Source: Cephalotus follicularis (lineage: Eukaryota > Streptophyta > Magnoliopsida > Oxalidales > Cephalotaceae). From it: DNA of 64,000 nucleotides. Shown here piece by piece: positions 690-62,260 of the stretch. Each line of letters begins with the position of its first letter. Within the stretch, counting starts at the first letter, position 1. The stretch lies in contig BDDD01002373.1 in assembly GCA_001972305.1 (NCBI GenBank), positions 62,001-126,000 of the forward strand, given 5' to 3'. The notes beneath the pieces are model-generated. The model was not told the origin of the DNA. It was given only the letters and a program-made list of their open reading frames with translations, and searched no databases. The position numbers were made by a program, and so were the translations under genes.

Positions 690-1335
690 TCTCTGCTGAC
701 ACAAAGACGTCGACCTCTTTCTGAAAGGCATCGATGTCTTTTAGTTGATAGCCGTTATGGTGGTTAAACTAGCCGTTCCAGCTTTCCCGGTTCTTGTTCT
801 CTTAAAAAGGCGTCGACTTCTTTTCTAAAGGATTCGATGTCTTTTACTTGGTAGCCGTTGGAAGTGGTTGAACTAGCCGTTCCAGCTTTCCCGGGTGTTG
901 TCTATTTGAAAAGGCGTCGACTTCTTTTTCAAAGGCGTCGATGTCTTTTCTGGGAAATATCCAGGTGCAGAGTCTTTGAGTGTCACGTCGATGTCTTCCA
1001 TGTAGTCGATGCTTTTTCTGGGGATGATGAAAATGTCATCGATCTCTATTTAAAGGCGTCGATGTCTTTCACTTGGACGTCGATGTCTTTTGGTTGAGGA
1101 TCGATGTCTTTGGGTGCATTTTCATACAGTAGCTTCTGTCTTGAAAATCACTGAATGCGTCGATGTTTTCCTGGAAGTAGTCGATGTCTTCTTGAATGTA
1201 GTCGACGTCTTTGGGAAGTGGTCGACTTCTTTTGGTACGGACGTCGATGCTATAACTGGGAGGTAGATGCTTTCCTTTCAGTTAATTCTGTTACAAAAGG
1301 CGTCGATGCTATTGTAAAGGAGTCGACTTCTTTTT
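690..1335. repeat. GTCGAC-centred palindrome array in U3 of LTR A
   Basis: About twenty copies of a degenerate palindrome, consensus AAAGACGTCGACGTCTTT, spaced roughly 20-40 bases. Variants have ATCGAC or GTCGATG centres. The array fills U3 upstream of the TATA box. Forward reading frames across it are repeat translations, not genes. Its relation to arrays elsewhere in the window is treated in the findings. Confidence 0.85.
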
Positions 1336-1450
1336 CTGCAGAATGGTTTTAGACTTTGATATTCAACTTGTAATTCCTTGCACATCAAGTAACTTAGTTA
1401 GATGCAAATATGTTATCATCAAAACAAGGATTGAGACTTAATCGTCAACA

Positions 1451-2631
1451 CTAATCACTACTCAACACATCACTAAAATCATTTACCATTAGAATCATAG
1501 AGATAATACCATCTTTAGACCTTAACAAAATTACATTCTCTTCTTCACAATATTGAACCCGAAATTTATGAAGTAGAATGGAGACTAAACCACACTTTTC
1601 ATACTTCAATTTACTATCACATAAACATCACTAACCAAAAAAATCAGCCTTCCTTATTCCTTAAAGAACCCGAATTTTCCAGAAATTAAGAATGAAGATT
1701 AATTCATGCTATCACGCTTTTATTATATCATTTCCATCATCTTATCTCCTACCAAAAATCAATCTTCTTTCATAAACAATAGACTCAAAAATTAAAGGAA
1801 GATAGAGGAGAGTTCAAATCATGAAATGAAGCTTCCATTCCCACTCAAATATAACCATACATTATGAGGAATTCATCCTCTCTTTAACAACCATAAAAAT
1901 TTGAATTTTTAAAGAAGAAAAAGGATGATGAATCCTTATACAAAATGCTTCAATTCTTATCAATTATCATCTATTATGCTAAATACAATCCATCCTCTTA
2001 ACCAATTCTTCCTCAAACCCAAAATTAGAAGTTAACATGCGATATATAACTAATCTTAGAAAGGAAATAGCTAGAGCTTACCTTAAAACACAAGAAGAGT
2101 ATAGGTGAATCACTTGTGACTTGTTTTCTTAAAGAATATTTGAAGAAATTGGAGAGCTAACAAGGAGAGGTGGTTCGGCTATAAGGAACTAGAATGTCGT
2201 CTCTCTTTTTTTATCTTCCTTAGGAAGCTTTAGAAAATTTGGGTAGCATGGAGAATGGTCTAGAATGTTGGAGAAATAAGGGGGAGAGAAGAATTGAAAA
2301 CGTTTTGGGAACAAGTGAAATTTCGACTGCATAAGAAAGTAAAGAAGACTTGACATGTTGGGCCAAATTTTTATACATAAATTTCATAGTTTTTGGGCCT
2401 TAACATCATGTAAAATTCAGGCCACTCTTAAAAGAATTTGAAATTTTGGGCTTTTACCATAAGTTTAACACTCAATCAACTTACTCCATTATAGCTCCAA
2501 TTAGTAGTCCATAATAAACTAATGCATGCCTTAATTAAGTCATCAAATGTCTGTAATTATTATACAAGGTATGCACACATAAAATGAACTCTTATAGGAC
2601 TATACTCTAATTTATAATGCGGGGTGTTACA
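1451..2631 (-). mobile_element. Gypsy-type LTR fragment (LTR J) inserted in Sirevirus integrase
   Basis: On the minus strand it starts TGTAACACCCCGC at 2631, typical of plant gypsy LTRs. It has a TATA-like TGTATAAAAA at 2368-2377 (minus) and a splice-donor-like AAGGTAAGC near 2078-2086. Its right edge interrupts a copia integrase reading frame exactly at 2632. The other end is lost where LTR A begins at 1451, so no target duplication can be read. No coding capacity is visible; the rest is AT-rich LTR sequence. Confidence 0.6.
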
Positions 2632-3858
2632 GTTCTAGCCATTTCTTCTAGAGTACGATTTTTCCTTTCAACAACCCCATTTTGTTGAGGAGTTCTAAGA
2701 GTTACAAAATTATGGCTAAAACTATTTTCCTCACAAGATTTTTCAAACAAATGATTTTCAAATTCCTTTCCATGATCACTTATAATGCTAACAATAGAAG
2801 AGTTTTCTCATTTTGAACCTTTTTACAAAAAACTGAAAATTCACGGAGGCTTCATTTTTATGGGCAAGAAAAATAGTCCATGTATACCTAGAGTAATCAT
2901 CAACAATGACTAAGGCATAATATTTAGCACCAATACTTCTAGTTCTAGTTGGTCCAAATAAATCTATACGCAATAGTTGAAGTGGCATAGTTGTGGAGAC
3001 AACATATTTACTTTTAAAGCTTGATCTAGTTTGCTTCCCTTTTTGACAAACATCACAAATTTGATCTTTTTGAAATCTTATTTTTGGAAGACCTTTAACT
3101 AGATCATGTTTAACAATTTTTGAGAGTGTTGTCATGTTAACATGACCAAGTCTCCTATGCCACAACCAACTACCTTCATTGTTTATAGACATAAGGCATT
3201 TCACATTTTGAATTTGTAAATCCAATAAATCAACTATATAAACATTGTCTTGTCTATAACCAGTGAACCTAGTTTGATCATTGTTAAGGTCTACAACATT
3301 GCAATGAGATTTTTAAAAAACAACTCTATAACCCTTGTCACATAATTGAATAATGCTCAAGAGGTTATGCTTGAGTCCATTAATATATAATACGTTATTT
3401 ATTTGGGTAAAGTCATTACCTATGGAACCAATTCCTTCAATTTTTCCATTTGCGTTATCTCCAAAGGTAACTTCTCCTCCATTATTTGGCTTCAAGGTGA
3501 TAAATTGATCTTTATCACCAGTCATGTGCTTTGAGCATCCACTATCCAAGTACCATTAAGTTTTTGTTGATTTGTCCTTCAAGCACACCTACACCAAGAG
3601 CCAATTCAAAATTTGTTCTTTGGTACGCAAATGAACTTTGTTACCTTGAATGTTAGTCACAATGGTTCCTTTTGGAACCCAAATCTTCCTAGTTTTATCA
3701 AGGTCAATTTTCTTTTTATGTAAACAAGATATGGAAGTATGTCCTTGCTTTCCACAATAATTAGAAGTGATTTTAGGCACACTGCTCTTAACAAAGAAAT
3801 TGTTAAAGTGTTTGACATTATTCATTTTGTCATACCCCAAACCGGCCTTATGAAACAC
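2632..3858 (-). pseudogene. pol: Sirevirus protease and N-terminal integrase (broken)
   Basis: In order there is a second knuckle-like motif (YCGKQGHTSISC, near 3730-3765), then the aspartic protease active site LDSGCSKHMTG (about 3520-3550), with the retropepsin core running to LLSIIQLCDKGY. After that come the integrase HHCC zinc domain (WHRRLGHVN ... CDVCQKGKQ, about 3030-3165) and the catalytic core with RIDLFGPT and VIVDDYSRYTW. The segments 3858-3589, 3549-3313 and 3225-2788 share one frame and are separated by stops. A further shift near 2788 precedes the SDHGKEFE and NGVVERKNR motifs, after which the gene ends abruptly at 2632. Confidence 0.82.
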
Positions 3859-5188
3859 ATCTTTGAATTCCTATGAGTTTATCCAATTTATCACTACTAT
3901 TGGAGAATTTTGAAAAATTCTTTTTCAAAGCATCAATTTCTAATTTTAGTGATTCATTTTCTTTTTCTAAAGAATTAGCCCTTTCTTTATCTTTTTCTAA
4001 TTCAAGAACATTAGTCTTTAATTCCTCTAGTTTGTAAGTGAGAACTTTGTTCAATTTATTTGGAGAGGAATGTTTTAAACTCAAATTCTTAGTGTATTCA
4101 ACTAGTTCATCATAAGCATCTTGAAGTTCATCATAAGAGAAAGAAGTAGAAAGATGTACCTCATTTTCATCTTCATTTTCAATTGCCATAAAGGCAATGT
4201 TTGCAACTTCTCCATCACTTTCTTCATCAGAGCTTGAATCGTCACTGTCACTCCATGTAGCCATCATTGCTTTCTTCTTCTTAGGATGCTCTTTGTTCTT
4301 CTTCAACTTAGGACAATCACTCTTGTAGTGTCCCGACTTGTTGCACTCATAGCAAATCACTTCTTCCTTCTTGCTTGATTCACCCTTTTGAAAATGCTTC
4401 TTGAAAGGCCTCTTTCCTTGTTGTCTCTTGTTTGGAAGAAACCTCTTGAACTTTCTTATTATTAGGGCCATCTCTTCATATTCATCATTGTCATCTTCAT
4501 TCTCCACTTTAGAGGCTGGAAATGCATCAATTTTCTTCTTTTTGGTCTCCTCACTTTCATGATTCTTCATTGTCCATCTCTTTGGAAAACATCTTAAAAT
4601 CTTCCTAACAAGTTCTTGGTTAGGATAGCATTTTCCAAGATTTTTAAGAGAGTTAATGATAGTAGTAAAACAAGGAAACATATCACTAATACTCTCATCA
4701 TCATGCATCATAAATAGTTCATATTGATGTACAAGCATGCTTATTTTTTACTCATTAACTTGGTTGGTACGTTCATAGGTAACCTCTAACAAGTTTCACA
4801 TTTCTTTTGCGGAGTCACATGAGAAAATACAATTCAATTCAACCGCATAAACAGCACAAAATAGAACATGTTTGGCATTTGAATTGAGTTGAAGCAATTT
4901 GACATCATTGTCATCAAACTCGTTTTCAGATTTAGGGGTAACCACCCCTTCTACAATTTTAGAGGGAGCTTTGGGACCATTAACTATAATGTTCCATAAT
5001 TGGTAGTCTAGTGATTGAATGAATATAGTCATTTTGGTTTTCCAAAATCTATAATGTTTCCCATCAAAGTAGGGAGGTCTAGTTATTGAAGAACCTTCAA
5101 CCCCATGTTGAGATTCCTTGAGGTTGTCATGGATCTTTATATCTCTAACAATTAAGAATAATAAGATAACTTCTCCCCGGAATTTCAT
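3848..5188 (-). pseudogene. gag: Sirevirus gag (broken)
   Basis: Gag is the RNA-binding capsid protein. The N-terminal part contains RPPYFDGKHYRFWKTKM, the conserved start of copia gag. The middle carries a CCHC zinc knuckle CYECNKSGHYKSDC (about 4310-4355), followed by a Lys-rich stretch, an acidic Ser/Asp/Glu tract and a Glu/Lys/Leu coiled coil. The two long pieces (5188-4796 and 4738-3848) are in one frame, separated by in-frame stops near 4794 and 4747. The true start is uncertain because the upstream leader is replaced by LTR sequence. A frameshift near 3850 separates it from the protease frame; whether that is natural gag/pol frameshifting or decay cannot be told. Confidence 0.8.
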
Positions 5189-5488: not shown

Positions 5489-5511
5489 CACGGGCGCACA
5501 ACGCGCCCGTG
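5489..5511. other. GC-rich hairpin in LTR I
   Basis: Perfect 9-bp stem CACGGGCGC / GCGCCCGTG with loop ACAAC. The same stem with a different loop is present at 55838-55859 and, with one end mismatch, at 58311-58332 in the related LTRs. It lies in the presumed transcribed leader of the LTR. Confidence 0.75.
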
Positions 5512-6526
5512 TGAAAAAAAAGAAGAAATGAGACAGAAGGAGAGAGGGCGTGAGAGAGCGAGAGAGAGCGCGAGACAGAGGGAGAGAGAGTTCGCAGGAG
5601 AAGGCGCCGGAGCAAGCTGCCAGACCAGGAAAGGATGGCGAGCAACCCAGGCTCTCAACCCGACGGTAACTTCTTCCTTCTTCTTTCTTTTCTCTCTTTT
5701 CTTCTCTTCTATTCCCCGACACTGTGCGACTTGGATGTGCAATTCCGAAACCGTTAGCGTCGCAGATAGAGTGGGTCTTCGTCTAGAAGGCCAGCTCTGC
5801 TCATTTTGACCACTGTTGAGGCATATCTCGGCCTGAATCGATTGGAATCAGTCGATTGAGTCAACTCAACCATTTCAACTCATTGCCGCCTGAGACCGTG
5901 CGATTTGTGCTGAGTCTCGATGAGTCTTGAACAGTGGTATGTAGAATTGATGGTTGTGTGGAGTTTTTGGGTGATGATCGGACTTGTTGAAGTCTGGCGA
6001 GTCAACTCAGTGAGTTGAACTCACTGCCCCCTGTAACACGGTGTTCGGCGCTGAGTCCCAGCGAGTCTTGAGTGGTTTTGAGTAGATCGTTCAATGTGGA
6101 ACATGTTTATGGGTGTTTCACAAGCTGAGTGAGTCGGCCAGAATCTGGCCAGTGCTCCGGTGACGGCAGTGTTGGTTTCTGTGTGTTAAGGGTAATGGAA
6201 ATGTGTTGTATGTGCAGTGAGCGAGTTGGTAATTTTGTTCGGCAGTGAAGGGAAGTGATAATCGATAGTTGGCAGCAATTTGGGAATGTTCGGCAATTAA
6301 ACCTACAGCTCGACTGTACTATTGCTACTGCTTTAACTGGTATGGATTATGTAGTTGTGTTCATGAGTTCAATTGTAATAGATGTTCATTTGATGAAATG
6401 CAAGTAATAGACCATGGTTTTGAGCATGAATGTGTGTACTGTTAGTAATGCTCTATTTTGGATTTATTGCATTGGAAATTGCACGTGTTGATCTGTTGTA
6501 TCGTGTGTACTGCCCGCAGAACCAGT

Positions 6527-6885
6527 CGACTGTTCAAAAAGAACAGCCGACTGTCAAGGGAAATAGTCGACTATTAAAACAGAGTAGCAGACTGTTAAAG
6601 GAAACAACCAACTGTTGAATGGAACACTCGACTGTCCACGTGTCTCCCCGCCCGGATTCACTGATGTGGTGATGCTGTGGTGTGTGGCAATGAAGAAAAC
6701 ATGCACTGTTCACACAACAGCCGATTGTCAAAAGAGAACAGCCAACTATTGAAGGAGAACATTCGACTATCAAAAGAGAACAGCCGACTGTTGAAGGAGA
6801 ACAACCGACTATCAAAAGAGAACATACGGCTGTTGAAGGAGAACAGCCGACTCTCAAGAGAGGACAACCGACTGTTAAAGGATTT
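6527..6885 (+). repeat. 20-21-bp tandem array in LTR I
   Basis: Two blocks of a unit of the form GAACAGCCGACTGTTGAAGGA. In the second block the CGACT core recurs at 6722, 6743, 6764, 6785, 6806, 6827, 6848 and 6869, an exact 21-base spacing. The first block has cores at 6527, 6548, 6568, 6589, 6609 and 6629. Many units contain CAGTCGACTG or CAGCCGACTG palindromes. Because 21 is a multiple of three, one frame reads as seven-residue repeats (6677-6898), which I regard as incidental. Confidence 0.9.
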
Positions 6886-9065: not shown

Positions 9066-10568
9066 TACCAATGTGCGGTGCTTTGGAAGTGGGTATCTAT
9101 ATTGAGTATATGAGGGATGTGTTCAATCCTGTAGCCCATGACCACGTTGATAGAATGTCAACGAAGTTTGTTATGTATGCTGCCGAGGTGGTTCCGGCTA
9201 TGGAAGTGTGTGAGTCGTTTGTGCATGTGCGTGTGTGGAATGTACTTGTGATATATACAGTACCTTGGATCCTTGGCATGTTCTGATATATATAAACTAT
9301 TGTTTATCTTCTTTCCTTGAGGTCAGTCATTGAGTTGGTAGCTCTGACGTCTCCTCGGACTTTTCCTTGTTATCGATATCCTTGTATACTTTCACCTCAG
9401 CCTTGTTTTGTTGAGTATGGGAGATGGGTTGTTCTCGGCCCAGTTGGGGCAGGGCACGTTCACCTTGACTCTTGGTACCACGATGGAAGTGGGTCACCCA
9501 GGATACTCCTTGATCTTACTCACTAGTCATTTGGACTAATCCCCTCTCAGTTTTGTGTGCAGAGGGAGCGAGGCAGCAGTGTTCTTGAGATCCATTAAGG
9601 ACAGCTTGTTGGAAGGGGTAGACGCTGGACGCAGCACCTTAGGATGGCTCCTAGGCCACAGACACCTTCATGCATTTGGGGACATTCATTGGGTTTTTGT
9701 ATAGTTTTTGTTTAATATCTAGACCTTGAAAAATCTTTCTTTATAACCATGTGTTTAAACTTTTGGATGTTGTGCCCTCGGCAGTTTGCCCGGGACCGTG
9801 TATAAAATTCTTTTCTTGTTTTATATGCTTGTTGTTTGTGCTGTTCTCTCAGCCCTGGCGCTGTTTTTACTTAGTGTTTGGGGTGTGCAGGTACGATGTA
9901 TAAGTTCAGGGGTTTTGGGACCCTGGGCAGGGGAGCAGCTCTTCCCAGCCCTGGCCTTGGTGAAACTGCAGTGTTTCTTCTCGGGCCTTTCGTGCGTGGC
10001 ACCTCTGTTGAGATGTTGGGGTAAAAAGTGGTGGCTTGATCTCGGTTTGTCAAACCTTTAGGTTGACCTTGCAGCTCAGGTTGGTTGACCCTAAGCTGAG
10101 GTCTGGTGGCATCCCCGGGCATTATCCCCAGGCATGCCGTTAACGTTTGGTGGAGGTAAGTAGTTTTCTTTAGTTTTGCCCGACCTCCCGACCTCGGACC
10201 AGCTTAGTCCCTGGAGACGTTTTGGTGGGTGAGCCCTGGTGGATCCCCTGGGCACCTGGTCGGGATGAGATGTTATCTCCTTGGTCTACTTTGAGTGTTG
10301 GTGGGACCTCGGGTGGTTGTCCCATGCGCTTGGCGTTGTCCCCGGGCCCTTGTGTTGATCCCAGGCTTAGATTTTTGTTAAGTTTTGTCGTCCAATGAGG
10401 ACATGCCCGAGGATGGTTCATCCTGGGAAGGCATGTCTTAGGATGGGGCGCAGGCCTAGTTTGCGTTACGTTATGTTATGTTGGCCTCCTTGCCCGGGAC
10501 CCCAAGCAAGACATAGTGTTGCGTTCTCTGCCCTGGCTCCCTTCCCTGGCATGTTCCCTTAGTGGAAC

Positions 10569-10971: not shown

Positions 10972-12246
10972 TGTAGGTCCAATAGGGCAACCCAAGATGG
11001 GGGTGAATTGGGTTCTTAGGCAAAATTATACTTTTTCAATTTATGCCAACAATATAAAACTTACAGCAAAAATTCAATATAAAATAACTAAGCAAAGATA
11101 TAAGTAAAGAGAGAGAGTAAGAAATTCCAAACATAGTTTTAGAGTGGTTCGACCAAACTCTTGCCTACGTCCACTTTTCTCTAGGTCCTCATTGATTTTC
11201 CACAAGACTTTTTCTAGTACACTTGATTTGGGTTCCGGGTGCAAAACAAACACCTTACAAATTCAGTGGTTGACCTCAATCACTAGTAAGTAATTTTGCC
11301 TTGAATTCTTACTCTCTCACTCTAGGGTATGACTAACCCTTTTCAATATTCCTTACTGAATTGAGAAAGGGTTTATTATTATAAAGGATAACCTCTACAA
11401 GGTTTGATTTTGCAAATTGTAATTCATTGAATATAGCTCTATAAAGATTTCAAATAAAAGCAAAGCTTTTTTAGTATGAAGGATTGAAATCTTGTGTATA
11501 TGGGAGTTTTGCTTTTTGCTCTTTCCAAAAGTCTTCTTCAGCTTCAAATGGGTCTTCTATTTATACTTGAAGCCTCAATTTCACCATTGCAAGAAATTGT
11601 AGGCATGATTTGCTTTTTGGAGCGTGCTCAAAACTAGCCGTTATGCGTGTCATATGGGTTTGGACGTCAACGATTATGACTGGCATTGACGATTATGTCC
11701 TTGGTATTGACACCTTTCTTGTTGCGCGTTAATGACTATAGCTTTTGATTGAGTTGAGCAGTTTTTGGCATTGACGACTAAGCATGGTGTTGACGCAAAT
11801 GTCCTCGGTGTTGACACATTTCTTGTTACGCGTTGACAATTATAGCTTCTATTTGAATTGAGAAACTTTTGACATTGACGACTACGAATAGCGTTGACAC
11901 AAATGTCATTGGTGTTGACACATTTCTTGTTTCGCCTTAACAATTATAGCTTCTGTTTGAATTGAGAAACTTTTGGCGTTGACGACTTAAAGATGGCGTT
12001 GACGCATATATATTCAATTTCCAGCACGTTAACGTAAATGATCATGGCATTGACGAAAATCATCTTGAAGCCCAGAAGTCATGCCCAAGCCCAGTGCGTT
12101 AACGCCAATAGTCCTAATATGCATTATTTGGTCTATTTTAACTGCAACTTGACTTGTTTGATTTATTTAATCAATCCTTCACATCAATAAACAAGTTAGG
12201 TGCATTGTTATCATCAAAACCATAATTGTAAACACAAGTGTCAACA
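10972..12246 (-). mobile_element. Copia LTR (LTR B), 5' LTR in minus orientation
   Basis: On the minus strand it starts TGTTGACACTTGTG at 12246 and ends at 10972 in TACA. Its layout parallels LTR A: a start containing 'tgatgataacaatgc', a repeat-filled U3, then an R/U5 with 'agagtggttcg' and 'cttgcctacgtccac' (11140-11175, compare 168-208 in LTR A). The two are related copia LTRs of about 1.3-1.45 kb. A primer-site stub follows at 10963-10970. Confidence 0.75.
11700..12010 (-). repeat. 104-bp tandem repeat in U3 of LTR B
   Basis: The phrase TTGACACMTTTCTTGTT recurs with its first CAC at 11711, 11815 and 11919, an exact 104-base spacing, giving nearly three copies. Each unit carries several GTTGACGC or GTCAACG motifs, which are variants of the GTCGAC motif of other LTRs with an A/T centre. 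A minus reading frame at 11674-11943 is only a translation of this repeat. Confidence 0.85.
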
Positions 12247-15422: not shown

Positions 15423-16849
15423 TGATGGAAACGGATAAACCGAATCCGGAGCCATAAATGGACTATGGTGAGAAGGGTGTAGAACAAAACAAAACGTACA
15501 AAACATGGCAGCGGAAGAACACCCAAAAAAAAAAACATAACCAGTCCATAATGGCACGTCCACAGACCACGTGGATCACCACAACATCAACAGAATTGAA
15601 TTAGTGTCACCATAGCATACAATGGTGATACACAAGCATGGCATGAAGAGAAGGACCAAGAGGTATACCAGTGGGTGAAGGCTCCTTCTTTCTCTACCGC
15701 TACATGCTTGGGAAGACACCAAACACGTTGCTCCCAAAATCCCTGGTACAGAAGCTACTCCAACCAGCAAGGACCAAGAAGAAATTGTAAAAACTCTCTC
15801 TCTCTCTCACTAAGCTTAGAAAAGGTAAATTGATATTGACCAATGAAGTCAATAATCAATCCACCCTGGATAAGCCCTTGCTTAGTGTATCACAGATGAA
15901 AGGAACACACTCTGCAGAGAGAAAAACGAAGTCACTTGCCCAGCAAAAAACTAAAACTTCACCCTCTCACTTTCTGCAGAAAAAGCTTATTACTAGCCCT
16001 CTACTTCTCTCTCCCACTCTCCCATTCACTTAAGATCATGGTCCTTACTCCTCGGGAGTCTGTGACCATGATCTCCACGTTTCCATAACATGCAAGAATG
16101 GGAGATGGTTGCTAGAGATGAGAGAGAAAACGTGCCCACGAAGTGAGCTCGTCCACAGGTTGCACGTTCTGCTCAAAGACGTCGACGCATTCCAAAGGAC
16201 ATCGACGCTTATACAATGTGGTACCAAGAACATCGGCTCTTTCTAAAAGACATCGACGCCTATAAAAACGTTAAGCATCGACGTCTTTCTAAAAGACGTC
16301 GACGCTTTGTCTGGCCAGTGAAGTAATAAGAGTCTAACTCCTTTAGTGATCTCATGTACCCTTCGAATATTGGTTAAGTAAGATCAAACATATGTGTTTC
16401 CACAAAATGCAAAATCCACATAACCGATATTTGGCACCAAGACTTAATATGTCCAACATATCAAAGAACTAATCATTGTAAGGCAGGGACGCTTTAAAAT
16501 CTTGGTTAAAACAAGCGGTGTTCATAAATTATCGAAATACCCCTAGGGTCCGGTTTAGCCATTCTAAATGGTCCTTGACCAATTTAAATGCTACCGGAAT
16601 AATATCTAATATTATCCAGATGGAAAATTAATCTAATTAATTTTTCCACACCTTCCAACCTTATGTCAGGGCATCACAAGTGTAAGCAGGTAAATAATAA
16701 GCTACTTCAATTAAGTGATAAAACACAAGTGATATAGCCATAACAAAAATTAGCACGAATCATATATATAAGGAATAAGATTGTTTCATTCAAGATAAGA
16801 TATAATGTGACAACCCATCTAATGGCTTGTCGGGTCACTATATCTAACA
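15423..16849 (-). repeat. 3' LTR of element D
   Basis: In plus text it runs from TGATGGAAACGG to ATATCTAACA (1427 bp) and aligns with the 5' LTR pieces 22731-23282, 31486-32100 and 40425-40621 with few differences. Compared with the 5' LTR it lacks about 0.7 kb between 'ttttccacacc' and 'ttccaacctt' (near 16655), so this copy has an internal deletion. A CT-rich (TC)n stretch lies at 15796-15810. U3 carries GTCGAC motifs. Confidence 0.9.
16162..16310. repeat. GTCGAC palindrome array in D 3' LTR
   Basis: Six or so copies of variants of AAAGACGTCGACGTCTTT between the TATA-proximal region and the LTR start. The matching part of the 5' LTR is at 31690-31755, where fewer copies remain. Confidence 0.8.
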
Positions 16850-20903: not shown

Positions 20904-22717
20904 TCTAGCAATCTAGATAAGGAAATATAAGCATGAGTTAGCATTTATTCCAATTTTAATATGTGATAACCATAATACTTGGTCTTTAGTGCTTATGGTT
21001 CCTCCCACTATTCTAATCGTATCCCATACCCCTATATGGAACTCGAGAAATCTAACTTCCTAGTGGGGATTCGAATCCATCGCAATCATATTATAGCCTC
21101 AGCTAGGGCATCACAAACTATAATATATCCAATGGGTAGGCTATCTTGCCAATTTGTATCCAATACAAGATCCAATCATAGTATTCGGCCTTAGATTCAA
21201 TATGGCCTCAGCTAGGGCATGACAAACCATCAGAATCTTGATAAGTCAAGTACCCACAATTTTCATTGGAATGTACTAGTTTTAACACCCACACGTAGGT
21301 GTGTCCAAGTGCTAAAACATAGCCACCCTTTGCGGTGCCCAACACCGACATTGACATAATATTCCCAAGCCATCAGCCTCAGCTAGGGCATGACAAACCA
21401 ACAACCTAGGAACACTACTCAACGAAAATTGTGGAAGGTCACGGGGAACCACTCCATGGGTTCCTACGTTAAGACTTATTATTAAAGTGAGGGAATTTGC
21501 GGTCTCATGTTTTAATTACCGAGCCATTAATTAATTCATTGGTTGTATTAGCCAATTCAAATTAATTACGGCTTAGCATGCAAGATGTGTATCTTATGCA
21601 CCTTGGACATATTTCTAAAATATGTTAATGGATTGGCCAGGACATTATTAGTAGTGACTTGAGCCCAAAGTCACTACTAGGTCTTCCTAGATGTAACGAT
21701 TTAAATCTATTTGTTACAACAAATAACCATGCATACATGGCCTTCAAAAGTCTTATACTCCATTTCTCCTTTCCTCCATCTCTCCTTGTAAGGTCTTCTT
21801 TTACATAAAGAACTTTACATTTTTGAAAGAAAAAATACATTTAAAAATACAAGGAAAAATTACAAAAGAAAGGAAAAATAAATGGTGCACACAGGCACCT
21901 TATTACAAACCTTTAAAGTAATAAATAAATAAATAGATCCATCCACACAAGAAAAACCACAAACTAGGTCTATGTCCTTATAGGGCCATCCATTGTGCAT
22001 AAGACTTATATAATATCCAATATTATAAAAGACAAATAAAACAAATGCCATAAATAATAACCAATTATACAATTTAATTTAAGGATTGTTAACTGATCAA
22101 ACTCACACTAAATCAAGCAATGATTTTTGATTTTCTAAGTGCCAAAATGTATAAAATCCTATTTTATAAAATAACAGTTTTTTTTATAAAGACGTCGACG
22201 CACCCCAGAAGGCGTCGACGCATTTGATGAAAACTACTGAAAAAGGCGTCGATGCATAATACGAGCATCAATGCGTTTCTCAAGAACTGTTGGAAATAGG
22301 CGTCGACGTTTATCAATAACATCGACACTTTTCCTGGAAACGATGAACAAGGCATCGACGTCTATCAAGAACGTCGACGCGTTTCCTGGAAAGATGAACA
22401 AGACATCGACGTCTATCAAGAACGTCGATGTCTATAGCCCCTTGGACAGTTTCTGCATTTCAAAAAATGCAGAAAATAATGGTCTAGACTTTGGCATTCC
22501 AATCTGGCAATCCAAACTGCACTATGCATGTTCCAAACATAATTCTAAACACATTATATCAAATTCACTAGTTCAAAAACACAATGAAATCCAATTTCAA
22601 GCAATTTTCACAAATGGCACTTTGAAAATCTAGTTTGATCATAAAACACATCCATTAATTAAACCATTAGTCAGTACATCATCTAAGGCATAAATTCAAT
22701 CAAGGATGATGTGGGAC
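20904..22717 (-). other. Untranslated leader of element D
   Basis: Non-coding 1.8 kb between the primer site and gag. It carries three copies of a 23-nt phrase (minus strand GTTTGTSATGCCCTAGCTGAG) at 21096-21118, 21205-21227 and 21376-21398. A related phrase occurs twice in the leader of F. A GTCGAC palindrome array lies at 22185-22435. No gene is supported; open frames here are short and match nothing. Confidence 0.75.
22185..22435. repeat. GTCGAC palindrome array in leader of D
   Basis: About eleven copies of variants such as AAGACGTCGACGCA, GGCGTCGACG and ACATCGACGTCTAT, spaced 20-35 bases. Part is a direct duplication, with TTTCCTGGAAA followed by 'gatgaacaag' and an ATCGACGTCTATCAAGAACG unit appearing at 22332-22378 and 22383-22430. 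It lies 3' of the primer site, so it would be part of the genomic RNA rather than U3. Confidence 0.85.
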
Positions 22718-22729
22718 GCTCTGATACCA
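22718..22729 (-). other. Primer binding site of element D
   Basis: On the minus strand TGGTATCAGAGC, one base after the 5' LTR end (TTTCCATCA). Complementary to initiator Met-tRNA. Confidence 0.9.
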
Positions 22730-32608: not shown

Positions 32609-32964
32609 TCATCGCATAAAAGGACAAAGCGTCGAGCAAAGAGTCGACTGACCAAAGCACAAAATGGTACAAAGCGGTGACGCTCAGAACGAAAGCGTCG
32701 ACGGTTTGCGTTAGACACAGAATATCAATTGCAGAAAATAGTTTCAAATCCATGGCTACATCCGATTTTCTTAAACTCAAGCATAATTATTGACATGCAG
32801 GCTCTTACAACGTTATTTCATAAGTTTGAAAAGCCAGATATACATACGATTACCTACAGAGAGTAAAACTCATTTTGAAACCTAATTTTCTTGTACATAA
32901 ATAGTTTATGCAACCATAACAAAATTTCGAATTTTTCTGTATATAAATCCTAAAATCAGTGACA
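32609..32964 (-). repeat. Remnant of 3' LTR of element E
   Basis: Matches 39072-39423 of the 5' LTR almost base for base. About 1.45 kb of the outer end and about 0.77 kb of the inner end are missing. An AT microsatellite follows (32963-32980), where the 5' LTR has a CA run followed by a TA run (39422-39461). Carries GTCGAC motifs at 32633-32702. Confidence 0.85.
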
Positions 32965-40197: not shown

Positions 40198-40626
40198 GTC
40201 TCCTACGCGGGTCCTGTTCAGTGTACACACTCCCAGCGCCCACCCCGTTTTTGCCATAGTGTCCAACACAGATGGTAGTGAGAGAATCCATCCTCCAATT
40301 CCATGAGGAGGCAACATACGCGCAAGTCTATCCAGTTCACTAATTCCCATAAAGTGAACCTATGACTTGGAACTAATTCGACATAAGGAATAAGGAAACC
40401 AATCTCACAGCCTCCATGCTAGGCATCCAACCTTATGTCAGGGCATCACAAGTGTAAGCAGGTAAATAATAAACTACTTCAATTAAGTTATGAAACACAA
40501 GTGATATAGCCATAACAAAAATTAGCACGTATCATATATATGAGGAATAAGATTGTTTCATACAAGATAAGATATAATGTGACAACCCATCTAATGGCTT
40601 GTCGGGTCACTATATCTAACACATAT

Positions 40627-42665: not shown

Positions 42666-43474
42666 TCACGAATTTTGAATGTTTTAAAATTTATACTACA
42701 AGTGCACGATTATGTAGTAACGGGTCGAACACTAGGAAATCAAGATAAATTAATTTTAATGTATACAACCTAAGCATAGCATGCAAAATTGATGTAATGA
42801 CCGGAAATTTTGAATGATAATGTTAAGGAGTATGTTCTTTTACTTGGTATCTTGTTTGCATCATGATTGGTGTGAATGTCATGTTGAAAGCGTCGACGGC
42901 AAAGATTAAGCGTTGACATAATTGTTTAAAGCACCGACGGTGTATGGTAAAGCTGCAACGCTTTAATGTTGTCTAAGGAACCATCGAAACGGATGCTTCA
43001 AACATCGACAGGCCAAGACAAAGTCACCTAATCTCCGACGGTCTATTAAAGTGGCGAAGCTTTGAAGGTAAATTATCGATGCTTAGACCTCTTCTAACGC
43101 CGGTTAAAAACAGGGGGTTTTCAACTTGGAGAAACTACTCCAACCAACGACTCTTGAACGAAAGCGGTAGTGCTTGGATGAAACCGACGATGCTCTAAAT
43201 GTAAACTTCGACGCTTTGAAGTCAAGCATTTCCAGTCAACTTGGACAAAACCCGTGAGCGGCGACGCTTGGAAGTGAAGCGCAGACGCTTTGGCCTGTAC
43301 ACCAGTTGCCAAATCTGAATTTTTATCTTTTAGTGAGTTAATTAATATAAATAATGGACACATGTCAGCCTAGGAGTAAGGAGACCAGATATTTTATGTT
43401 GGAATGATTAAGTAATTCCAAGTGTCAGCAATTGGTTGGTGGAATTAGAGCACATGGCACTACTAGAAAAAGAA

Positions 43475-43800
43475 CATTTCCCGACCGCCAAAGCGGTCGG
43501 AAAACCCTTAAAAGCGGTCGGCGAAAGGTTTCCCCGACCGCCGAGCCGACCACAATGGCGACCGCTTATAACTGGGTCGCCGATTATAACCCGACCGTTT
43601 CCCCGACCGCCTTTATCATTTGCTGACCGTCAAAACGGTCGGGAAGTGAAGCGGTTGCTGTTGATCGGTGTCAGAAAATAAATTTTGTAAGGATTTGCCG
43701 ACCGCCATAGCGGTCGGCGAATATATATAAGTGGCCGGTAATTGATAATAATTTTTAAATTAAATTAATTTCATAAGGATTTACCGACCGCTATAGAATA
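43475..43800. repeat. Left subterminal repeats of CACTA element
   Basis: At least six copies of CCGACCGC or its complement, several paired as short hairpins such as CCGACCGC-CAAA-GCGGTCGG (43478-43497) and CCGACCGC-CATA-GCGGTCGG (43698-43717). In this transposon class such repeats bind the TNPA-type protein. Function by family knowledge. Confidence 0.85.
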
Positions 43801-50504: not shown

Positions 50505-50870
50505 CGTAAGCGTCGACGGTTTTGGGCTTTACGTTGACGGTTTGGTACGTTGAAGCGCTAACCGTCGACTTGAATGTTGCGTTATTTAGCTAACTTAGGT
50601 GTTAAGCGTCAAGGCTTACAAGCAAGGCGTCGATGCTTAACTTGGCGTTGACATCTTCCTCATTGCATGTTAACGTTTAAGCTACTGTTTGATTTGTGCA
50701 CTTTTGGCATTGACGTATAAACATTCACGTTGATGCCAAAAGGATTGGTGTTAACGAAAATCATAAAACTGCAAACTTGTTCTAGATGAAGTGTAATGCG
50801 TCGACGCTTTCCTTGAAACTGTCATCACTTTGAGTCTAGGCGTCGATGCTTAAAGTCTAGGCGTTGACAT
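50505..50870. repeat. GTCGAC/GTTGAC motif array in remnant H
   Basis: About twelve motifs such as AAGCGTCGACGGTTTT, TTTACGTTGACGGTTT, GGCGTCGATGCTTAA, GCGTCGACGCTTTCC and GGCGTTGACATTTTG. They have the same centre as the arrays in the LTRs of E and G, but lie next to a Tat/Athila-type 3' region. Confidence 0.8.
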
Positions 50871-51828
50871 TTTGCTCTGTTTTCTACAGATTTTTCACCA
50901 ATTTGACCCATTCTTCATGCACTTTGGTCTTTTTAGCCTTGTACCTGAAAATCAACATAACACAACCAAAGTAGTATATTCTAAGCATAAAAATATCACA
51001 AATAAATCATTAAAAACAACACATTTTTATGCTAAACAAATACCTCCATACTTAGACTTTGCTTGTCCTCAAGCAAACAAAACGGAAAGCTAAAACACGA
51101 ACAAACAAAAGCTAAAACTGAAAACATAAACAAAATGATAACTCACTTTCGTAGGAATCATGATTGCATTTAGCATATGCCATAAGCCGTTAAACTCCTA
51201 GGTGCCCCTAGTGGGCGAGTTTTGTCTCGTGAGTGTTTTCCAGCAAATATACACACAAAATTCAGTTCATTAAAACTTTGACAATAAGCAAAATGTATCT
51301 CCACTTAAAAATTCATAGGCAACCTCCCATACTTGAATTTTATTATCTCGTCTCAAGTTCTAGAATCTAAACACATCTCAATTAAGGAGCTTTACCAAAA
51401 TTTTCTATTTTTCCAGCATATATATATATATACCAATCAAGATATGCATTCGTATCAACATAAAATCTTAATTCGGAGTCGGACATAGAACTTTAGCTCT
51501 TACACACATCTTTTTCTTTCTTTTTCTTTTCTCTATTCATCGAGCTCATTCCTCTACTACCGTTTGTTTGAATCACATGGATGGAGTAAACACTAGACAC
51601 CCAAATTACTAAGTAGCTTCAGATTTTACCAACTTAAATTCGTGCAATGTCTTGATCTCTTAAGCTTTCTATAGGACCCATGTAGCGAGCTTTTAACCAG
51701 TTACTCTCAAACCAGTTGGCTTTAAGGAACTAGGTGTAAAACACCCCTAAGGCTTAATTACACGAATCAAATAGGCTACAAACCAAGACTGAATTCAAAG
51801 AGGTAAAATATACAATATATATCAATTA

Positions 51829-53964: not shown

Positions 53965-54245
53965 TTTTACAAAAGAGTCGACTTCTTTTCTGGAAATTTC
54001 ATGCTTTACTAAAACGCGTCGACTTCTTTTCTGGAAAAATTCTGACTTATGAAAATCTCGTCGATTCTTTTTGAAAAACATCGATCTCTTTGAAACACGT
54101 CGACTACTTTTAAATAGCGCCGATGCTTTTAAAAACGCACCGTTTATGCAGCTCTATTTTAAAGAACGCGTCGACCTCTTTTTGAATAACGTCGACGTCT
54201 TTTACTCAGAAATCGACTTCTTCATAAAAAGTCGACCTCATGTTC
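53965..54245. repeat. GTCGAC motif array between pol and the extra ORF of K
   Basis: About eleven motifs such as GAGTCGACTTCTTTTCTGGA (twice), CTCGTCGATTCTTTT, CACGTCGACTAC, ACGTCGACGTCTTTTA and AGTCGACCTC. They resemble the array in the 3' LTR U3 of the same element but lie about 200 bases upstream of the ATG of the extra ORF. Confidence 0.85.
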
Positions 54246-54444
54246 ATTTCTTCACTTTACCTCCATTTCTGAGATTTCAAAAAAATTTCTTCTCTCTCCG
54301 TTTTTCTTCAAAAATCGTTCTATTAGGTCGTAAACCACTCCCTGATTCCTTATCCATCCTCAAAAACCATTTTCGTCTCGTCCAAATCATCTATTTGTAT
54401 CACTCTTTGTGTTTGTGTCTTGTGCACACCATCTGTTGGATAAA

Positions 54445-57400
54445 ATGGTCAGATCAAAACAGGGTGCCAAAAAGAAGGGTGCTTCTTCCTCTCAGCCACT
54501 GAAATCTGCTAAAAAGCAGAGGCTTAAGATTAGAGAACCTTCCCCTGATCCTACTCTCCAATCGGATTCCGAATCCGAAGAGCAAGCCCCTGTCCCATTG
54601 AGAAGTGTTGCCTTTGTTGACAAGAGAGTCATGGGAGGCAGAAATATTGACTTAAATTTCTGTTCCTCCGAATTCTCTTTTGTATCTTGGTTAGAGGACC
54701 TCCATCTCATTCCCCTTGTACAAATTTCTGACCCTTTTTACATCAAATTGGTCAAGGAATTTTATTCCAACCTTAGGATGGTTTCTAGCCAAAATGAGGA
54801 ATTTGCCCTCTCTTCTTCTGTTAAAGGAGAAATAATTTACCTAGATGCTAGGATTCTAGCTTCTATTTTACACATTCCACACACCGGTCTATATGTCTTT
54901 GAACACAAGAAATGGCCGAAGGTTGAGGGTTTTCACCCTAACCAAATTTTGTTGATTTTGTACCCAAATGATCCTAACGTGCATCCAAATATGGCACTGA
55001 CCACCAATAGATTGTCAGTAGACCATAGGCTTCTACACCATCTCATTGTTCATCAAATCTTACCCACCGGTGGAGGGTATGCAAAATTGTCTAGGATCCA
55101 AGTTTTTCTAATGTGGTTCATCCTTTCTAAAATTGAGTTTTGTTTTCCTCTCTTCATGATCAAGACTATGGTTAGAGCATTCTCACAAAAGAAATCAGTT
55201 CTACCTTTTGGCTCTATCCTTACCAAAGTCTTTCTCCATCATCAAATTCGGCTAGAAGGAGAGATAGCAACCAAATTGAAGAAAGAAGATACCTACAACA
55301 AGAGCACCTTGAATCGAATGGGGTGGAAGAAACAGGAAGGAATTTGGACATATTGCCCCAAAGTGGATCAAGCACCAAGGATGGCAAGGGAAGAGCAAGA
55401 AGACAACCCTCCTTGGGAAGCTCAAGAACAAGCTGCCCCTTCTCAAGCTCAAGCTCAAATGTAACACCCGAGTTTTTCGCAAAATGTAAGATTACGATTT
55501 TAATGTAATCTTATTATGGAATTATTGAGAATAGTGAAATTCTTGAATTTGATGATGTTTTCCATTTTATGGGGTTGAGTTTTGAAAGGGGGATGATAAG
55601 GAAATGTTCTAAGGCATTGCGCATTTAAAGTCGCAATTATGATGCTTGAAACGGCTAATAAAGTCTATTTTAATGCGCGACAGTAAGGCCCCATGTTCGC
55701 ATTATTATTACGATTATTTTGGTTCCCGTTTGGATTATTTTGGTCGCAATTTGCGGAATAATCGGGACCCAGGCTTTAGTATTTTGTCCGTAAATACTAC
55801 AGTAGAAGCAAAAAATGATATAAGGGAGAGGGAGAGACACGGGCGCGTGTGCGCCCGTGCAATAGAAAGACGCAGGCGCTCTGTGCGCCTGCACCAGAGA
55901 GAGAGAGAGATTCGGAGAGAGAACGGCAGAGAGCTCGGGAGAGGACGCCGGAGGTAGCTACCGGACCGGGGGAGCGCGGCGGTCAACCCAGGCACGCCAC
56001 CGACCGGTAACCTCTTCTCCTTTCTTCTCTTTTTTTCTCCTTGCCGCCACTGTTCGTGCCTTTTCCGGGCATTTCCCGGCGCCGTTAGCGTCGCGGGTGG
56101 GGTGGGTTATGGTGTAGGAGGTCCGCTCTACCCATTTCCACCACCGGTGAGGCGTGATTCGGCCGGAATCGGCCGGAATCAATGGACTGAGTTGACTCAG
56201 TGAGTCGACTCACGGCCGCCTAAGACCGCGCGTTTGGCGCCGAGTCTTGGCGAGTCAAGGGCAGGGATGTGTTAACCAGGTGATTGTGTGACGTTTTTGG
56301 GTGTTGATCGGACCTGTCGAGGTCCGGCGAGTTGATTTAGTGAGTCACGACTCGCTGCCGACCGTGGCGCGGCGTTCGGCGCCGATTCCCGGCGGGTTCT
56401 GAGCGGTTCTGTGTACGCCGTTCAATGCGGAACCCGTTGATGTGTGTTTCACAACCTGGTTGTGACGGTCGGATTCCGGCCGACGTGTCGACGACGGCAA
56501 TGTCAGTTTTCGTGCGTCGATCGTAATGGAAATATATATTGTGTATGCAGTGAGCGAGTTGGTAAATTGGTTCGACTATGAAGGGAATTGATGATCGATA
56601 ATTGGCAACAACTCGAAAATGTTCGGAAGAGAAACTGCGGCTCAACCGTATAGTTGCTATGGTTAATAGGTGAGTTGCATGACATGTTTAGGAGCATTTC
56701 GCATGCATTTTGTAGTTGATAAATGCTATGCATGTGTATTTTGGACTGAATCGTATATATTGTTGTGTTGGTTTTTACTGTTGGGATTAGTTCTGTTGAG
56801 TATTGGCTAGGATGAATCATGGGAGAGAAGGAGATTAAAACGAGGTAAGGACTCCTATTCTCTTTCTAAAAGTATCTTACATTGTAAGAATTCCTAACAT
56901 GTTCATTGTTTTTGTATGTTGTATGCAGCCATTGGTTGCTGACCTGTTTCATTGAAATGAAGTGGGTCAAGTTCAGGTTCTGGTGGACGCGTCAGTGATT
57001 AGACAGTCCGAGTGCAGGGTAAGAATCAATGTTCTTTCGATTTATGTTTGTATAAGGTAGTTGATGTAGATGAATAGTATATGTACATTATATGACCTGC
57101 CGGCTTGTGGCAGTGCTGAGATATAAATGTGTGTTGATGTATTAGACCTGCCGGCATGTGGCAGTGCATAAGTTGATCGGTGTATGATATATTTAATTTA
57201 GTTGTGATGAAGCCTGGTGCGGGCTGAGCCCCAGCATATAGATTATGATAAGATATGAGGGTTGATCCCCAAAACATATAAACTATGGTTTATCAGGTGG
57301 CATGGAGTCCGATAAATGAATACTTCATGCCGAAATTTCGAGAAATCCTAAGAGGTTGATTTTAATGGATTCATCACTTGAGGTTCTAGAATGATGATTT

Positions 57401-60400
57401 GGATATAAATTGTAGTTTATTAAGGGCGGAGCCCATTTGTGAACTGCTGATTCCTCCTTAGGGAGTGTGAATATATAAAATGTGTTTTCTTTTCATGGGG
57501 CATAGTCCGATAAACGAATACTACATGCCCGATTTTTGGGAGATTATAAGAGTTGAAATGTATTCAATTGAATATTCCGCTGATAGGATATGATTGTCTA
57601 AAGTTTTATAGCACTTTTGGGTATGATTGATATATGATTGTTTGGATTGGACAGAACTGCGCTGAATATAACCGCGTAGAATCTTTACTGCTGGGAGATT
57701 GAAAATGATTAACTGAATAAAGTGTTAATTGGAGTCATTGGAATTGCAGAATAATAATAGGTGTTATGCCGAGTTCTTGGAGACCGAATGATACGGATAT
57801 AGACTGTACGGTTACGGATTGTGCAGACATAACCGTATGGTTATGGATCGTATGATTATGAATGGTTGATGTGGATGAGTTAGATTTCCGAGTAGGGAAT
57901 CTCGGGACGAGATTCTTTTAAGGAGGGGAGAATGTAACACCCGAGTTTTTCGCAAAATGTAAGATTACGATTTTAATGTAATCTTACTATGGAATTATTG
58001 AGAATAGTGAAATTCTTGAATTTGATGATGTTTTCCATTTTATGGGGTTGAGTTTTGAAAGAGGGCTGATAAGGAAATGTTCTAAGGCATTGCGCATTTA
58101 AAGTCGCAATTATGATGCTCGAAACGGCTAATAAAGTCTATTTTAATGCGCGACAGTAAGGCCCCATGTTCGCATTATTATTACGATTATTTTGGTTCCC
58201 GTTTGGATTATTTTGGTCGCAATTTGCGGAATAATCGGGACCTAGGCTTTAGTATTTTGTCCGTAAATACTAAAGTAGAAGCAAAAAATGATATAAGGGA
58301 GAGGGAGAGACACGGGCGCGTGTGCGCCCGTCCAATAGAGAAACGCAGGCGCTCTGTGCGCCTGCACCAGAGAGAGAGAGAGATTGGGAGGGAGAACGGC
58401 AGAGAGCTCGGGAGAGGACGCTGGAGGTAGCTACCGGACCGGGGGAGCGCGGCGGTCAACCCAGGCACGCCACCGACCGGTAACCTCTTCTCCTTTCTTC
58501 TCTTTTTCTTCTCCTTGCCGCCACTGTTCGCGCCTTTTCCCGGCGTTTCCCGGCGCCGTTAGCGTCGCGGGTGGGGTGGGTTATGGTGTAGGAGGTCCGC
58601 TCTACCCATTTCCACCACCGGTGAGGCGTGATTCGGCCAGAATTGGCCGGAATCAATGGACCGAGTCGACTCAGCGAGTCGACTCACGGCCGCCTAAGAC
58701 TGCGCGTTTGGCGCCGAGTCTTGGCGAGTCAAGGGCAGGGATGTGTTAACCAGGTGATTGTGTGACGTTTTTGGGTGTTGATCGGACCTGTCGAGGTCCG
58801 ACGAGTTGAATAAGTGAGTCACAACTCGCTGCCGACAGTGGCGCGGCGTTCGACGCCGATTCCCGGCGGGTTCTGAGCGGTTCTGTGTACGCCGTTCAAT
58901 GCGGAACCCGTTGATGTGTGTTTCACAACCTGGTTGTGTCGGTCGGATTCCGGCCGGCGTGTCGACGACGACAATGTCGGTTTTCGTGCGTCGATCGTAA
59001 TGGAAATATATATTGTGTATGCAGTGAGCGAGTTGGTAAATTGGTTCGACTATGAAGGGAAGTGATGATCGATAATTGGCAACAACTTATATATGCTAAG
59101 TCAGGTTTTATGTGTACGTATCGTAAATAGTTGATGTTTTACGTACGCTTTACGAGGATTTGTACAGTATGTTGAGTGGATAATTGGTATCGTTGATATG
59201 CCAACTCGGCGTCAAAGAGAAGGCTTGTAAAAGCATTAAGTGTTCTGTTTTACTTTCAATAACTACTCAAATGGAGAGAAATGATTTTATGAATGCATTT
59301 GAGTTAACTACTCAAATGAAATGAAAAGAAATGTTTTATGAATGCATTTGAGTTAACTACTCAAATGAAGAGAAATGTTTTATGAATGCTTTGAGCTGGT
59401 CACTCAAAGCATAGAAATGTTTTATAAAATGTTTTATGAAATGAATGAACAACTACTGGATTGCGATCCAGTGAGGATTAATCTCGTAAAGATTAATAAA
59501 TGAACCGCCTTGGATTGCGATCTTCCAAGGAAAATGGAGCGAAATGCTCAATGTTAATAGAGCGCAAGGCTCAAATGTTAATGGAGCGCAAGGCTCAATG
59601 TTAATGGAGCGCAAGGTTCAATGTTAATGGAGCGAGATTGCTCAAAGTTAATGGAGCCGAGCGTGCTCACGGACATGCATGCGATGTAAGGATAGTAATC
59701 GGGGAGTGCACAATGCCCCGGTGAAGCGGTGTAAAGGGTTCACAAGAGGTTCACGACCACCAAGTTTTATGAAATGTTCTGTTTCATGATATATGAACAG
59801 AAAAAGAGTTTTAAAGATGTTTTGCTTATGAATGTGAAGAAAATGATTTTTACCGATGTTTTCAAGTATGGCTGTGATACAAGCCAAAAGAAGGTATGAT
59901 TGGAAAAAGTTTTTGATTGTTTTCAAGTATGCTGGTTATATATATACCAAAAAATGTAAAATTTTAGAAATGCTCTGGTTTTATAACAACTAGAAGATGA
60001 TTTTCAAAGATATTATGAAAAGTATGATGTTGAAAGGTTTTGATATAAATTATCAAAAATAACGGACTTCGATAACATTTTATGACTATGATTCTTACTG
60101 GGCTCTTAAAAGCTCACTCCTTTCAATGTTTTGTTTTCAAATAAACTATTTTCAGGGAACGATCGAATGAAGAATGCGAGCTTTAGAGGAAGCTCATAAG
60201 AAGAAATGTCGGAAAGAAGTATGTTATGCTATGATGTTTTTACATAAGATGATAATGTCTTGAGAGTATGAGAAGTTAATGATAAAGGAGAGTATATGAT
60301 TGTTTATGATGTAATAAGTTATGTTTTTCCGCTGTGAGAGGTTACATGTAAATTGATGTACAAATGTAAAAGTATTAGAAATGATCATGATAATGAGAAT

Positions 60401-60936: not shown

Positions 60937-61269
60937 TTGTTTGTTGCTGTTTTGTTTGTTGTTAGTTATAATGAACCCTGATGTTCATTTGTATTTCCTT
61001 TATGAAATTCTTGTTTGTAATAGACAAAGTTGTTAATGTTTTTTTTTTGTGATATTAATGAAATGTTTATGTGTTCATTATGTGTTTTATGTTTATGAGA
61101 TGATGTTCATACAGATTTATGAATTGATGTTTATGTTTTTTGATATATGATATAATTGTGTTGAATGAATAAGTTTTCTCAATTAATTGCCGATAATTAT
61201 ATTCATTGCCGATACTTTGATATTTTTATGCATAATGCCTATACTCACTCTTTTCACCCTTGCTTGTAT

Positions 61270-61602
61270 TAAGGGGGAGCTAATGTTTTCTGTCTTTTGT
61301 AGTACTTTTTGATGCTATACAAAAAAGGGGGAGAATAAGCTCAAAATATGTTAGTATCAAAGGGGGAGAACAAAGGGGGAAAATAGGGCTTAAGCTCAAA
61401 AGTTAATGTTAATTTGGAGAAAAGGCTCACATATTGGAGAAAGTGTTCAAGGAAGCATAACTTATGATTTATTTGAATATTGCACACTCAATATGATCCT
61501 TGCAAGATATCTCTATTTGATATTCACTTATATTTTTAAATTGGTATTACTTTAATTCTTGCCTTTTGAGTAAATTTTTGTCATCATCAAAAAGGGGGAG
61601 AT
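61270..61602 (+). other. Multiple polypurine tracts upstream of Sirevirus 3' LTR
   Basis: AAGGGGGAG-type tracts occur near 61271, 61325, 61361 and 61373 and directly before the LTR at 61589-61602 (AAAAAGGGGGAGAT). Multiple tracts before the 3' LTR are a known Sirevirus trait. The last one is the likely functional primer site. Confidence 0.85.
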
Positions 61603-61719
61603 TGTTGACGATTTAGTCTCAATCCTTGTTTTGATGATAACATATTTGCATTTGACAAATCTACTTGATGTGCAAGGAATTACAAGTTCAATATCAAAGC
61701 AAAAATACCATCTGCAGAA

Positions 61720-62260
61720 GAAGACATCGACTTTCAAAGAATAACATCGACGTCCATACAGAAAGAAGTCGATCCCTTTCTAAAAGACATCGACGCCTTT
61801 CATGCCAGAAGTTACAGGTCAAATTCACATGAAGACATCGACTTCTACAGGCAAAGACATCGACGTCCGTACAAAAGAAGTCGACCCCTATCTGAAAGAC
61901 ATCGACGTCTTTAGGTGCCAAAGTTACAGGACATTTTCGAGTGATGACATCGACGCTTATCAGTAAAGACATAGACATCCGTACGAAAGACATCGATGCC
62001 TTTCCATAGACATCGACGCCTTTCTAGAGCTACCTGCATTTCCCAGAAAATACATCGACTCCCACAGAAGAAGTCGATGTAATGTTCAAAGCTTCAATAC
62101 CTGGAGATTTCCCAGAAATGACATCGACGCCTTTTAAAAAGACATCGACGTCTTTTTAAATGAACAAGACCCGGGAAACCTGGAACGGCTAGTACAAGCA
62201 CTACCAACTGCTATCAGCTACAAAGACATTGATGCCTTTTGAAAGAAGTCGGCGTCTTTA
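61720..62260. repeat. GTCGAC/ATCGAC palindrome array in U3 of K
   Basis: About eighteen motifs, e.g. AAAGACATCGACGCCTTT and AAAGAAGTCGACCCC. A higher-order unit of 112-113 bp is visible: GACGTCCATAC (61749), GACGTCCGTAC (61862) and GACATCCGTAC (61974), each followed by the same motif order. The array ends upstream of the TATA box. Confidence 0.9.

Follow-up and report, generated by a model that had tools for sequence, protein, structure and literature searches.

GTCGAC palindrome arrays with a 20-22 bp step in copia and gypsy LTR retrotransposons of Cephalotus follicularis

Arrays of short palindromes centred on GTCGAC were analysed in a nest of long terminal repeat (LTR) retrotransposons of Cephalotus follicularis, which occupies positions 62,001 to 126,000 of contig BDDD01002373.1 (C2373:62001-126000; this 64,000 bp stretch is referred to below as the window). 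The nest contains Sirevirus A, the Sirevirus-type LTR B, copia D, gypsy C, gypsy E, LTR H and others; the genome searched comprised 1.577 Gb in 9,746 contigs. That such arrays occur in Sireviruses was noted in a first-pass annotation of the window and is documented: Bousios et al. (2010; PMC2829016) describe palindromic RM arrays in Sirevirus LTRs, upstream of the TATA box, and before the ENV gene. There the RM is called Sirevirus-specific, mostly with a CGG-CCG signature and with one exception (Tnd-1); copies begin 200-400 bp after the junction of the polypurine tract (PPT) and the LTR, with 92% of them in the upper half, and the Vitis Sirevirus RM CGGTCGACCG has a GTCGAC core. A word search of that paper on spacing terms returned no RM step. 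In maize (PMC10760457), the palindrome CACCGGACNNNGTCCGGTG is common to Copia elements and Helitrons, and Ty3 elements are generally without an obvious structured peak. The targets of VANC proteins in VANDAL elements (PMC5735166) are arrays of short protein-bound motifs in the non-coding DNA of transposable elements (TEs) and evolve by tandem duplication; for VANC21, the family in which its motif is highly enriched also encodes the protein that reads it.

The Sirevirus A arrays resemble the RM in preceding a TATA box (by about 79 and 91 bp) and in having extra copies, at 53970-54245, before an ENV-like open reading frame (ORF). A-left and A-right hold 16 sites each, where at least eight palindromic copies per element are expected of RM arrays. 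Unlike the RM, no CGG-CCG signature is present in A, the symmetrised consensus being AAAGACGTCGACGTCTTT; the A-right array begins about 117 bp after the LTR start at 61603, not after 200-400 bp; the arms are AAAGAC, AAAGC or GGCA and the sites follow a 20-22 bp step; and arrays are also carried by copia D, gypsy C, gypsy E and H, the last probably a gypsy element. As with the maize palindrome, one motif spans two TE groups, although its sequence is different, and as with the VANC targets short motifs are arrayed in non-coding TE DNA, but the GTCGAC arrays are common to copia and gypsy and not confined to one family. Palindromic bZIP-type enhancer elements are also found upstream of the TATA box in genetic parasites, as the ocs/as-1 elements of plant viruses and T-DNA; the sequence of these is different, and ACGT is not a common element of the GTCGAC arrays. 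The GTCGAC ladders extend the known Sirevirus palindrome arrays, and a literature search over titles and the starts of abstracts, with most subscription journals outside its coverage, returned nothing on GTCGAC ladders in gypsy elements.

The 20-22 bp step is absent from the first-pass annotation and was found newly here. The step statistic covered the window, two further loci (L005 and L006) and 18 loci of a first sample of 20 unselected 10-kb loci; the other two sample loci (L019 and L026), which hold long self-repeating satellite-like arrays with a unit of about 400 bp in L026, were dropped. Adjacent sites 10-45 bp apart fell at 20-22 bp in 141 of 275 pairs and, with similar spacers removed, in 68 of 181 pairs against 15 expected (p about 2e-27). 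Eleven control palindromes fell at 20-22 bp in 6-14% of pairs overall, ten of them at 6-13% and GTTAAC, which also picks up altered cores, at 14%. With exact matches in 27 loci, 22 of 42 GTCGAC pairs lay at 20-22 bp, while each of the eleven other palindromes shown gave at most two. Word counts over the whole genome were set against the reversed word, which carries GpC in place of CpG and is an imperfect control: GTCGAC N4-34 GTCGAC occurs at 224,538 places against 3,925 reversed, or about one close GTCGAC pair per 7 kb of genome. Among 100 close pairs listed, all from one contig (C1) and some of them repeated copies, 76 had a step of 20-22 bp, which was exactly 21 bp in 48 of them. The step between neighbouring sites is thus a whole number of helical turns, as expected of a cooperative dimer ladder; helical phasing beyond neighbours was not convincing once similar spacers had been removed.

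The arrays reported in the first-pass annotation are real. In the window GTCGAC was the most enriched of the 64 palindromic 6-mers (50 observed, 5.5 expected), and it again ranked first in the 20 unselected loci (97 against 14.2), where the 8-mers AGTCGACT (50 against 1.3) and CGTCGACG (15 against 0.19) stood out. When the sample was increased by five to 25 unselected loci and an array was defined as at least four sites with one exact core and one step of 19-22 bp, 11 loci held at least one array, and 91 of 117 GTCGAC fell inside arrays. Site density, counted with the core at no more than one mismatch, was 15-43 per kb in the arrays measured and 2.3 per kb in the remainder of the window. The arrays are as follows.

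690-1335, minus strand: array in the U3 of Sirevirus LTR A-left, 15-18 sites depending on the definition, arm AAAGAC
6515-6640, plus strand: array I1, arm CA (CAGTCGACTG), adjoining a stretch related to LTR F
6715-6885, plus strand: array I2, arm CA, mostly altered copies
11660-12110, minus strand: array in Sirevirus-type LTR B, with GTTGAC at most sites and all four adjacent steps 19-22 bp long
16170-16315, minus strand: array in the copia D LTR, arm AAAGAC
22185-22435, minus strand: array in the copia D 5' leader
30000-30135, minus strand: gypsy C, second of two arrays, at about 1351-1486 bp counted from the start of the LTR
31180-31320, minus strand: gypsy C, first of two arrays, with arm GGCA, at about 166-306 bp counted from the start of the LTR
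31690-31755, minus strand: array piece in the interrupted copia D 5' LTR, read directly, few sites
32630-32705, minus strand: part of an array, in the left-hand repeat of gypsy E
39035-39165, minus strand: array in the right repeat of gypsy E, about 1031-1161 bp from the likely LTR start
39935-40080, minus strand: gypsy E array some 116-261 bp into the LTR, whose start is likely near 40196
42885-43290, minus strand: degenerate array G
50505-50875, minus strand: U3 array of the probable gypsy LTR H, which starts near 51038
53970-54245, plus strand: array directly upstream of the Sirevirus A ENV-like ORF
61715-62262, plus strand: U3 array of Sirevirus A-right, with eight of nine adjacent steps measuring 19-22 bp

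Of these, the arrays at 53970-54245 and 6715-6885 had been overlooked in the first-pass annotation. The intervals 23705-23790 and 31690-31755 do contain sites when read directly, though few, and the interval 22185-22435 sits outside the LTRs, in the 5' leader of copia D (the complement of the primer-binding site, PBS, is at 22718-22729).

Each array-bearing segment was compared with 1,000 dinucleotide shuffles for GTCGAC, RTCGAY and GTYRAC and was enriched for at least one of the three, non-Sirevirus LTR segments included; as had been claimed, the arrays are common to the copia and gypsy superfamilies. Enrichment was weak in the gypsy C 3' LTR (p 0.05), in E-left (p 0.015-0.054) and in G (p 0.017-0.096). 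Exact GTCGAC was not enriched over the shuffles in A-right (1 against 0.15, p 0.14) and is absent from LTR B; in both the signal is carried by altered cores. Element F, which has no ladder, was also somewhat enriched (GTYRAC, p 0.006). The two arms of a site were complementary at 0.28-0.59 of positions in the arrays and at 0.265 in the remaining window, with values near background in E_l (0.28), E_r (0.30) and G (0.31). The perfect 18-bp palindrome AAAGACGTCGACGTCTTT, on which one class of sites had been said to converge, does not occur in the window; it represents the consensus of both Sirevirus U3 arrays after symmetrisation and occurs 4,083 times in the genome, against 18 times for the reversed control.

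Over 13 segments of the window, 40 of 64 adjacent pairs at 12-45 bp had a step of 19-22 bp. The Sirevirus-type segments contributed 7/8 (A-left), 8/9 (A-right), 3/6 (pre-ENV) and 4/4 (B); copia D 2/3 (LTR) and 4/7 (leader); gypsy C 3/7 (3' LTR 0/1) and E 4/7; and the others 1/1 (G), 2/5 (H), 2/2 (I) and 0/4 (F). By arm type the step was found in 57/79 CA-CA pairs, 35/60 C-C pairs and 11/38 pairs with mixed or other arms. Both main arm types retain it, in Sirevirus, in another copia element and in one (probably two) gypsy lineages. Altered cores in the window arrays are mostly CpG transitions (48 of 70 single-mismatch cores, family-level variants being counted several times), and these are the reason for most ATCGAC, GTCGAT and GTTGAC forms; decay of this type suggests methylation of the arrays, which bears on shared silencing, another explanation offered in the first-pass annotation. 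In the CGTCGACG-type arrays (16170-16315, 61715-62262 and 690-1335) the flanking CpGs seem to be altered more often than the central one, and over all arrays single CpG changes numbered 34 flanking and 14 central, uncorrected for shared ancestry.

A TATA box follows the array at about 79 bp in A-left, 91 bp in A-right, 95 bp in B and 87 bp in H, and at 92 bp in a copy of H in another locus (L024). With the same word set, no TATA-like word was present within 700 bp downstream of the arrays D LTR, C2, E_r, I1 and pre-ENV, or in the LTR of a further locus, L009. The nearest TATA was at least 232 bp away in C, E_r2 and I2 and at 17 bp in the D leader; copia D has one array in its LTR and another in its 5' leader.

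The reading we consider probable, if by no great measure, is that the arrays serve LTR retrotransposons as ladders of regulatory binding sites for a putative dimeric DNA-binding protein. Each rung would be a palindrome of 10-18 bp with a GTCGAC core, bound by one dimer. Rungs mostly 20-22 bp apart, or two helical turns, would place adjacent dimers on one face of the DNA, where they could touch, and an array ending 79-95 bp upstream of the TATA box, as in A, B and H, may serve as an upstream enhancer or repressor site. Arrays would expand by local duplication, and exchange between lineages is possible, as for B and H. That a two-turn step recurs while arms and spacers vary argues for a dimeric protein with neighbouring dimers in contact, and since the core and the step are common to copia and gypsy and the arms are not, one host protein or protein family is the most likely reader. 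A single host factor, one of the explanations offered in the first-pass annotation, is therefore the best fit to the recurrent step, the protein itself being putative; its cooperativity and an enhancer function of the ladders are likewise what we infer from sequence. The factor suggested there, a bZIP protein recognizing ACGT, is not supported as common denominator: ACGT flanks 23 of 102 cores, and 0 of 14 in C and I, though 9 of 14 in D.

Recombination, by which the array would have arisen once and been copied among LTR lineages so that sharing reflects descent and not convergence, appears unlikely as the general explanation, although part of the data speaks for it. The spacers of B (Sirevirus) and H (gypsy) are shared with a score of 95 against a maximum of 71 in 1,000 nulls, and the matches survive masking of the motifs (E 0.001 and 0.004); exchange is the likely source of a common ancestry of these two arrays, as judged from their spacers. 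Other pairs were compared with 60 spacer shuffles each: C-I gave z 10.8, and the weaker cases were A pre-ENV-D LTR (z 4.8) and A-left-D leader (z 3.8), both above all 60 shuffles, and B-I (z 3.0). The A-D matches, however, vanish with the motifs masked, and import of Sirevirus fragments as a general route is not borne out. Arm types differ among families, and descent alone would not retain GTCGAC and the step while spacers diverge; independent upkeep of the arrays probably contributes.

Less likely still is that transcripts of the arrays form hairpins that are diced into small RNAs, making the arrays preferred targets of recognition by the host. Small RNAs can likewise measure 21 nt, and the CpG-type decay of the cores would agree with methylation. 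Relative to 60 shuffles per array, folding was strong in the D leader (-7.4), D LTR (-6.7), A-right (-5.7), C2 (-5.7), A-left (-4.7) and I1 (-4.6) and lower in I2 (-3.4), pre-ENV (-3.2), C (-3.0) and H (-3.0), and maize Sirevirus LTRs offer a precedent (PMC10760457 and PMC5311732). Folding was near that of the shuffles in B (-1.1), E_r (-1.1), E_r2 (-2.1) and, with the plus strand folded, in G (-1.2). RNA folding thus does not account for all arrays, being strong in A, D, C2 and I1 but not in B and E_r; B folds poorly yet keeps the step in 4/4 pairs, and E keeps it in 4/7, which supports the ladder. Hairpins have no need of a fixed step between palindromes, and since the A, B and H arrays precede the TATA box, a normal transcript would include them at its 3' end only. 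The least probable explanation is slippage, in which repeat units of some 21 bp built around a palindrome would give arrays without function: a tandem duplication with a 104-bp period is present in B and A-left, but several lineages have this core and this step in common despite differing spacers, and control palindromes reach only 6-14% (the 14% being that of GTTAAC, which also matches altered cores).

Two further features belong to Sirevirus A.

54409-55464, plus strand: ENV-like ORF of Sirevirus A (Pfam PF20167)
61603-62378, plus strand: partial 3' LTR of Sirevirus A-right, preceded by several AAGGGGGAG polypurine tracts and with a TATA box near 62353

Element A has the Sirevirus hallmarks of multiple PPT copies before the 3' LTR (several AAGGGGGAG tracts at 61270-61600, read directly) and an ENV-like gene. 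The ENV-like ORF gave 420 protein matches, of which the 120 listed are all named Cephalotus follicularis; the best has 92% identity over 92% of the query. LTR B, listed separately in the first-pass annotation, is Sirevirus-type like A and hence no independent lineage. Nested in the Sirevirus ENV region is element F (55461-59087), with repeats of about 1.16 kb that are 97% identical; some pairs of its GAGTCGACTC palindromes are 13 bp apart, and the 21-bp step is not followed.

The LTRs of copia D and gypsy C were placed as follows.

15423-16849, minus strand: 3' LTR of copia D
23283-23957, minus strand: 3' LTR of gypsy C, shorter by about 2.1 kb, three sites near 23705-23790
28695-31486, minus strand: 5' LTR of gypsy C, within the D 5' LTR, target-site duplication CTTTC

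The D reverse transcriptase (RT) shares 27.6% identity with the RT region of A, the latter being read in its best single frame, with stops. The C and E RTs are 68% identical, which places both in one gypsy group; a chromodomain in gypsy C is only weakly indicated (12.5 bits for Pfam Chromo, below the cut-off of 25.1). Gypsy C and locus L009 have one array 155-306 bp and another 1.1-1.5 kb from the LTR start, and the gypsy C 3' LTR is without the segment that separates the two array zones in the 5' LTR. What is called E is probably a gypsy element within an older solo LTR, with uncertain boundaries: the stretches 32101-32597 and 40197-40425, parts of which are nearly contiguous in locus L014 (9873-9465), are probably that solo LTR, lying in the D LTR and entered later by gypsy E. 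A first look at the genome gave 2,140 candidates for gypsy E, of which 40 were scored.

LTR H is probably gypsy; its placement with Tat/Athila is tentative. In L024, gypsy-pol ORFs (RT, RNase H and H2C2/rve integrase) come after the H LTR start, the array (4415-4706) and a portion of the downstream LTR, all on one strand. This copy is not clean: the remaining H LTR matches 9343-9471 and 9727-9838, by which the H LTR of L024 is split by the coding region, and no direct repeat of at least 150 bp was found in L024, which argues against a complete nested element. The copy of H in contig C3143 has copia integrase pieces upstream, and in L124 there are matches to Sirevirus LTR starts as well, which we interpret as a nested Sirevirus. 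Three array copies of the H family have 12, 7 and 3 sites; 3,397 candidates were obtained at first look in the genome and 40 were scored. The left end of G, reversed, is common to H-family LTRs; G and H, listed separately before, are probably one broad family, with G reading on the minus strand. Adjoining array G, the stretch 43460-43720 contains repeated CCGACCGC...GCGGTCGG palindromes and is presumably a CACTA-type DNA transposon end, judged by the signature CACTACTAGAAAAA...

Plant retrotransposons are usually assumed to have lineage-specific control regions. We regard it as quite possible, and propose it tentatively, that a single host or TE-derived protein family reads two-turn GTCGAC ladders in both superfamilies, that the modules have converged as well as moved, and that much of the retrotransposon load forms one shared regulon. 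If so, a large share of the repeats could be turned on or off by one trans-acting protein family, and control modules would move between superfamilies.

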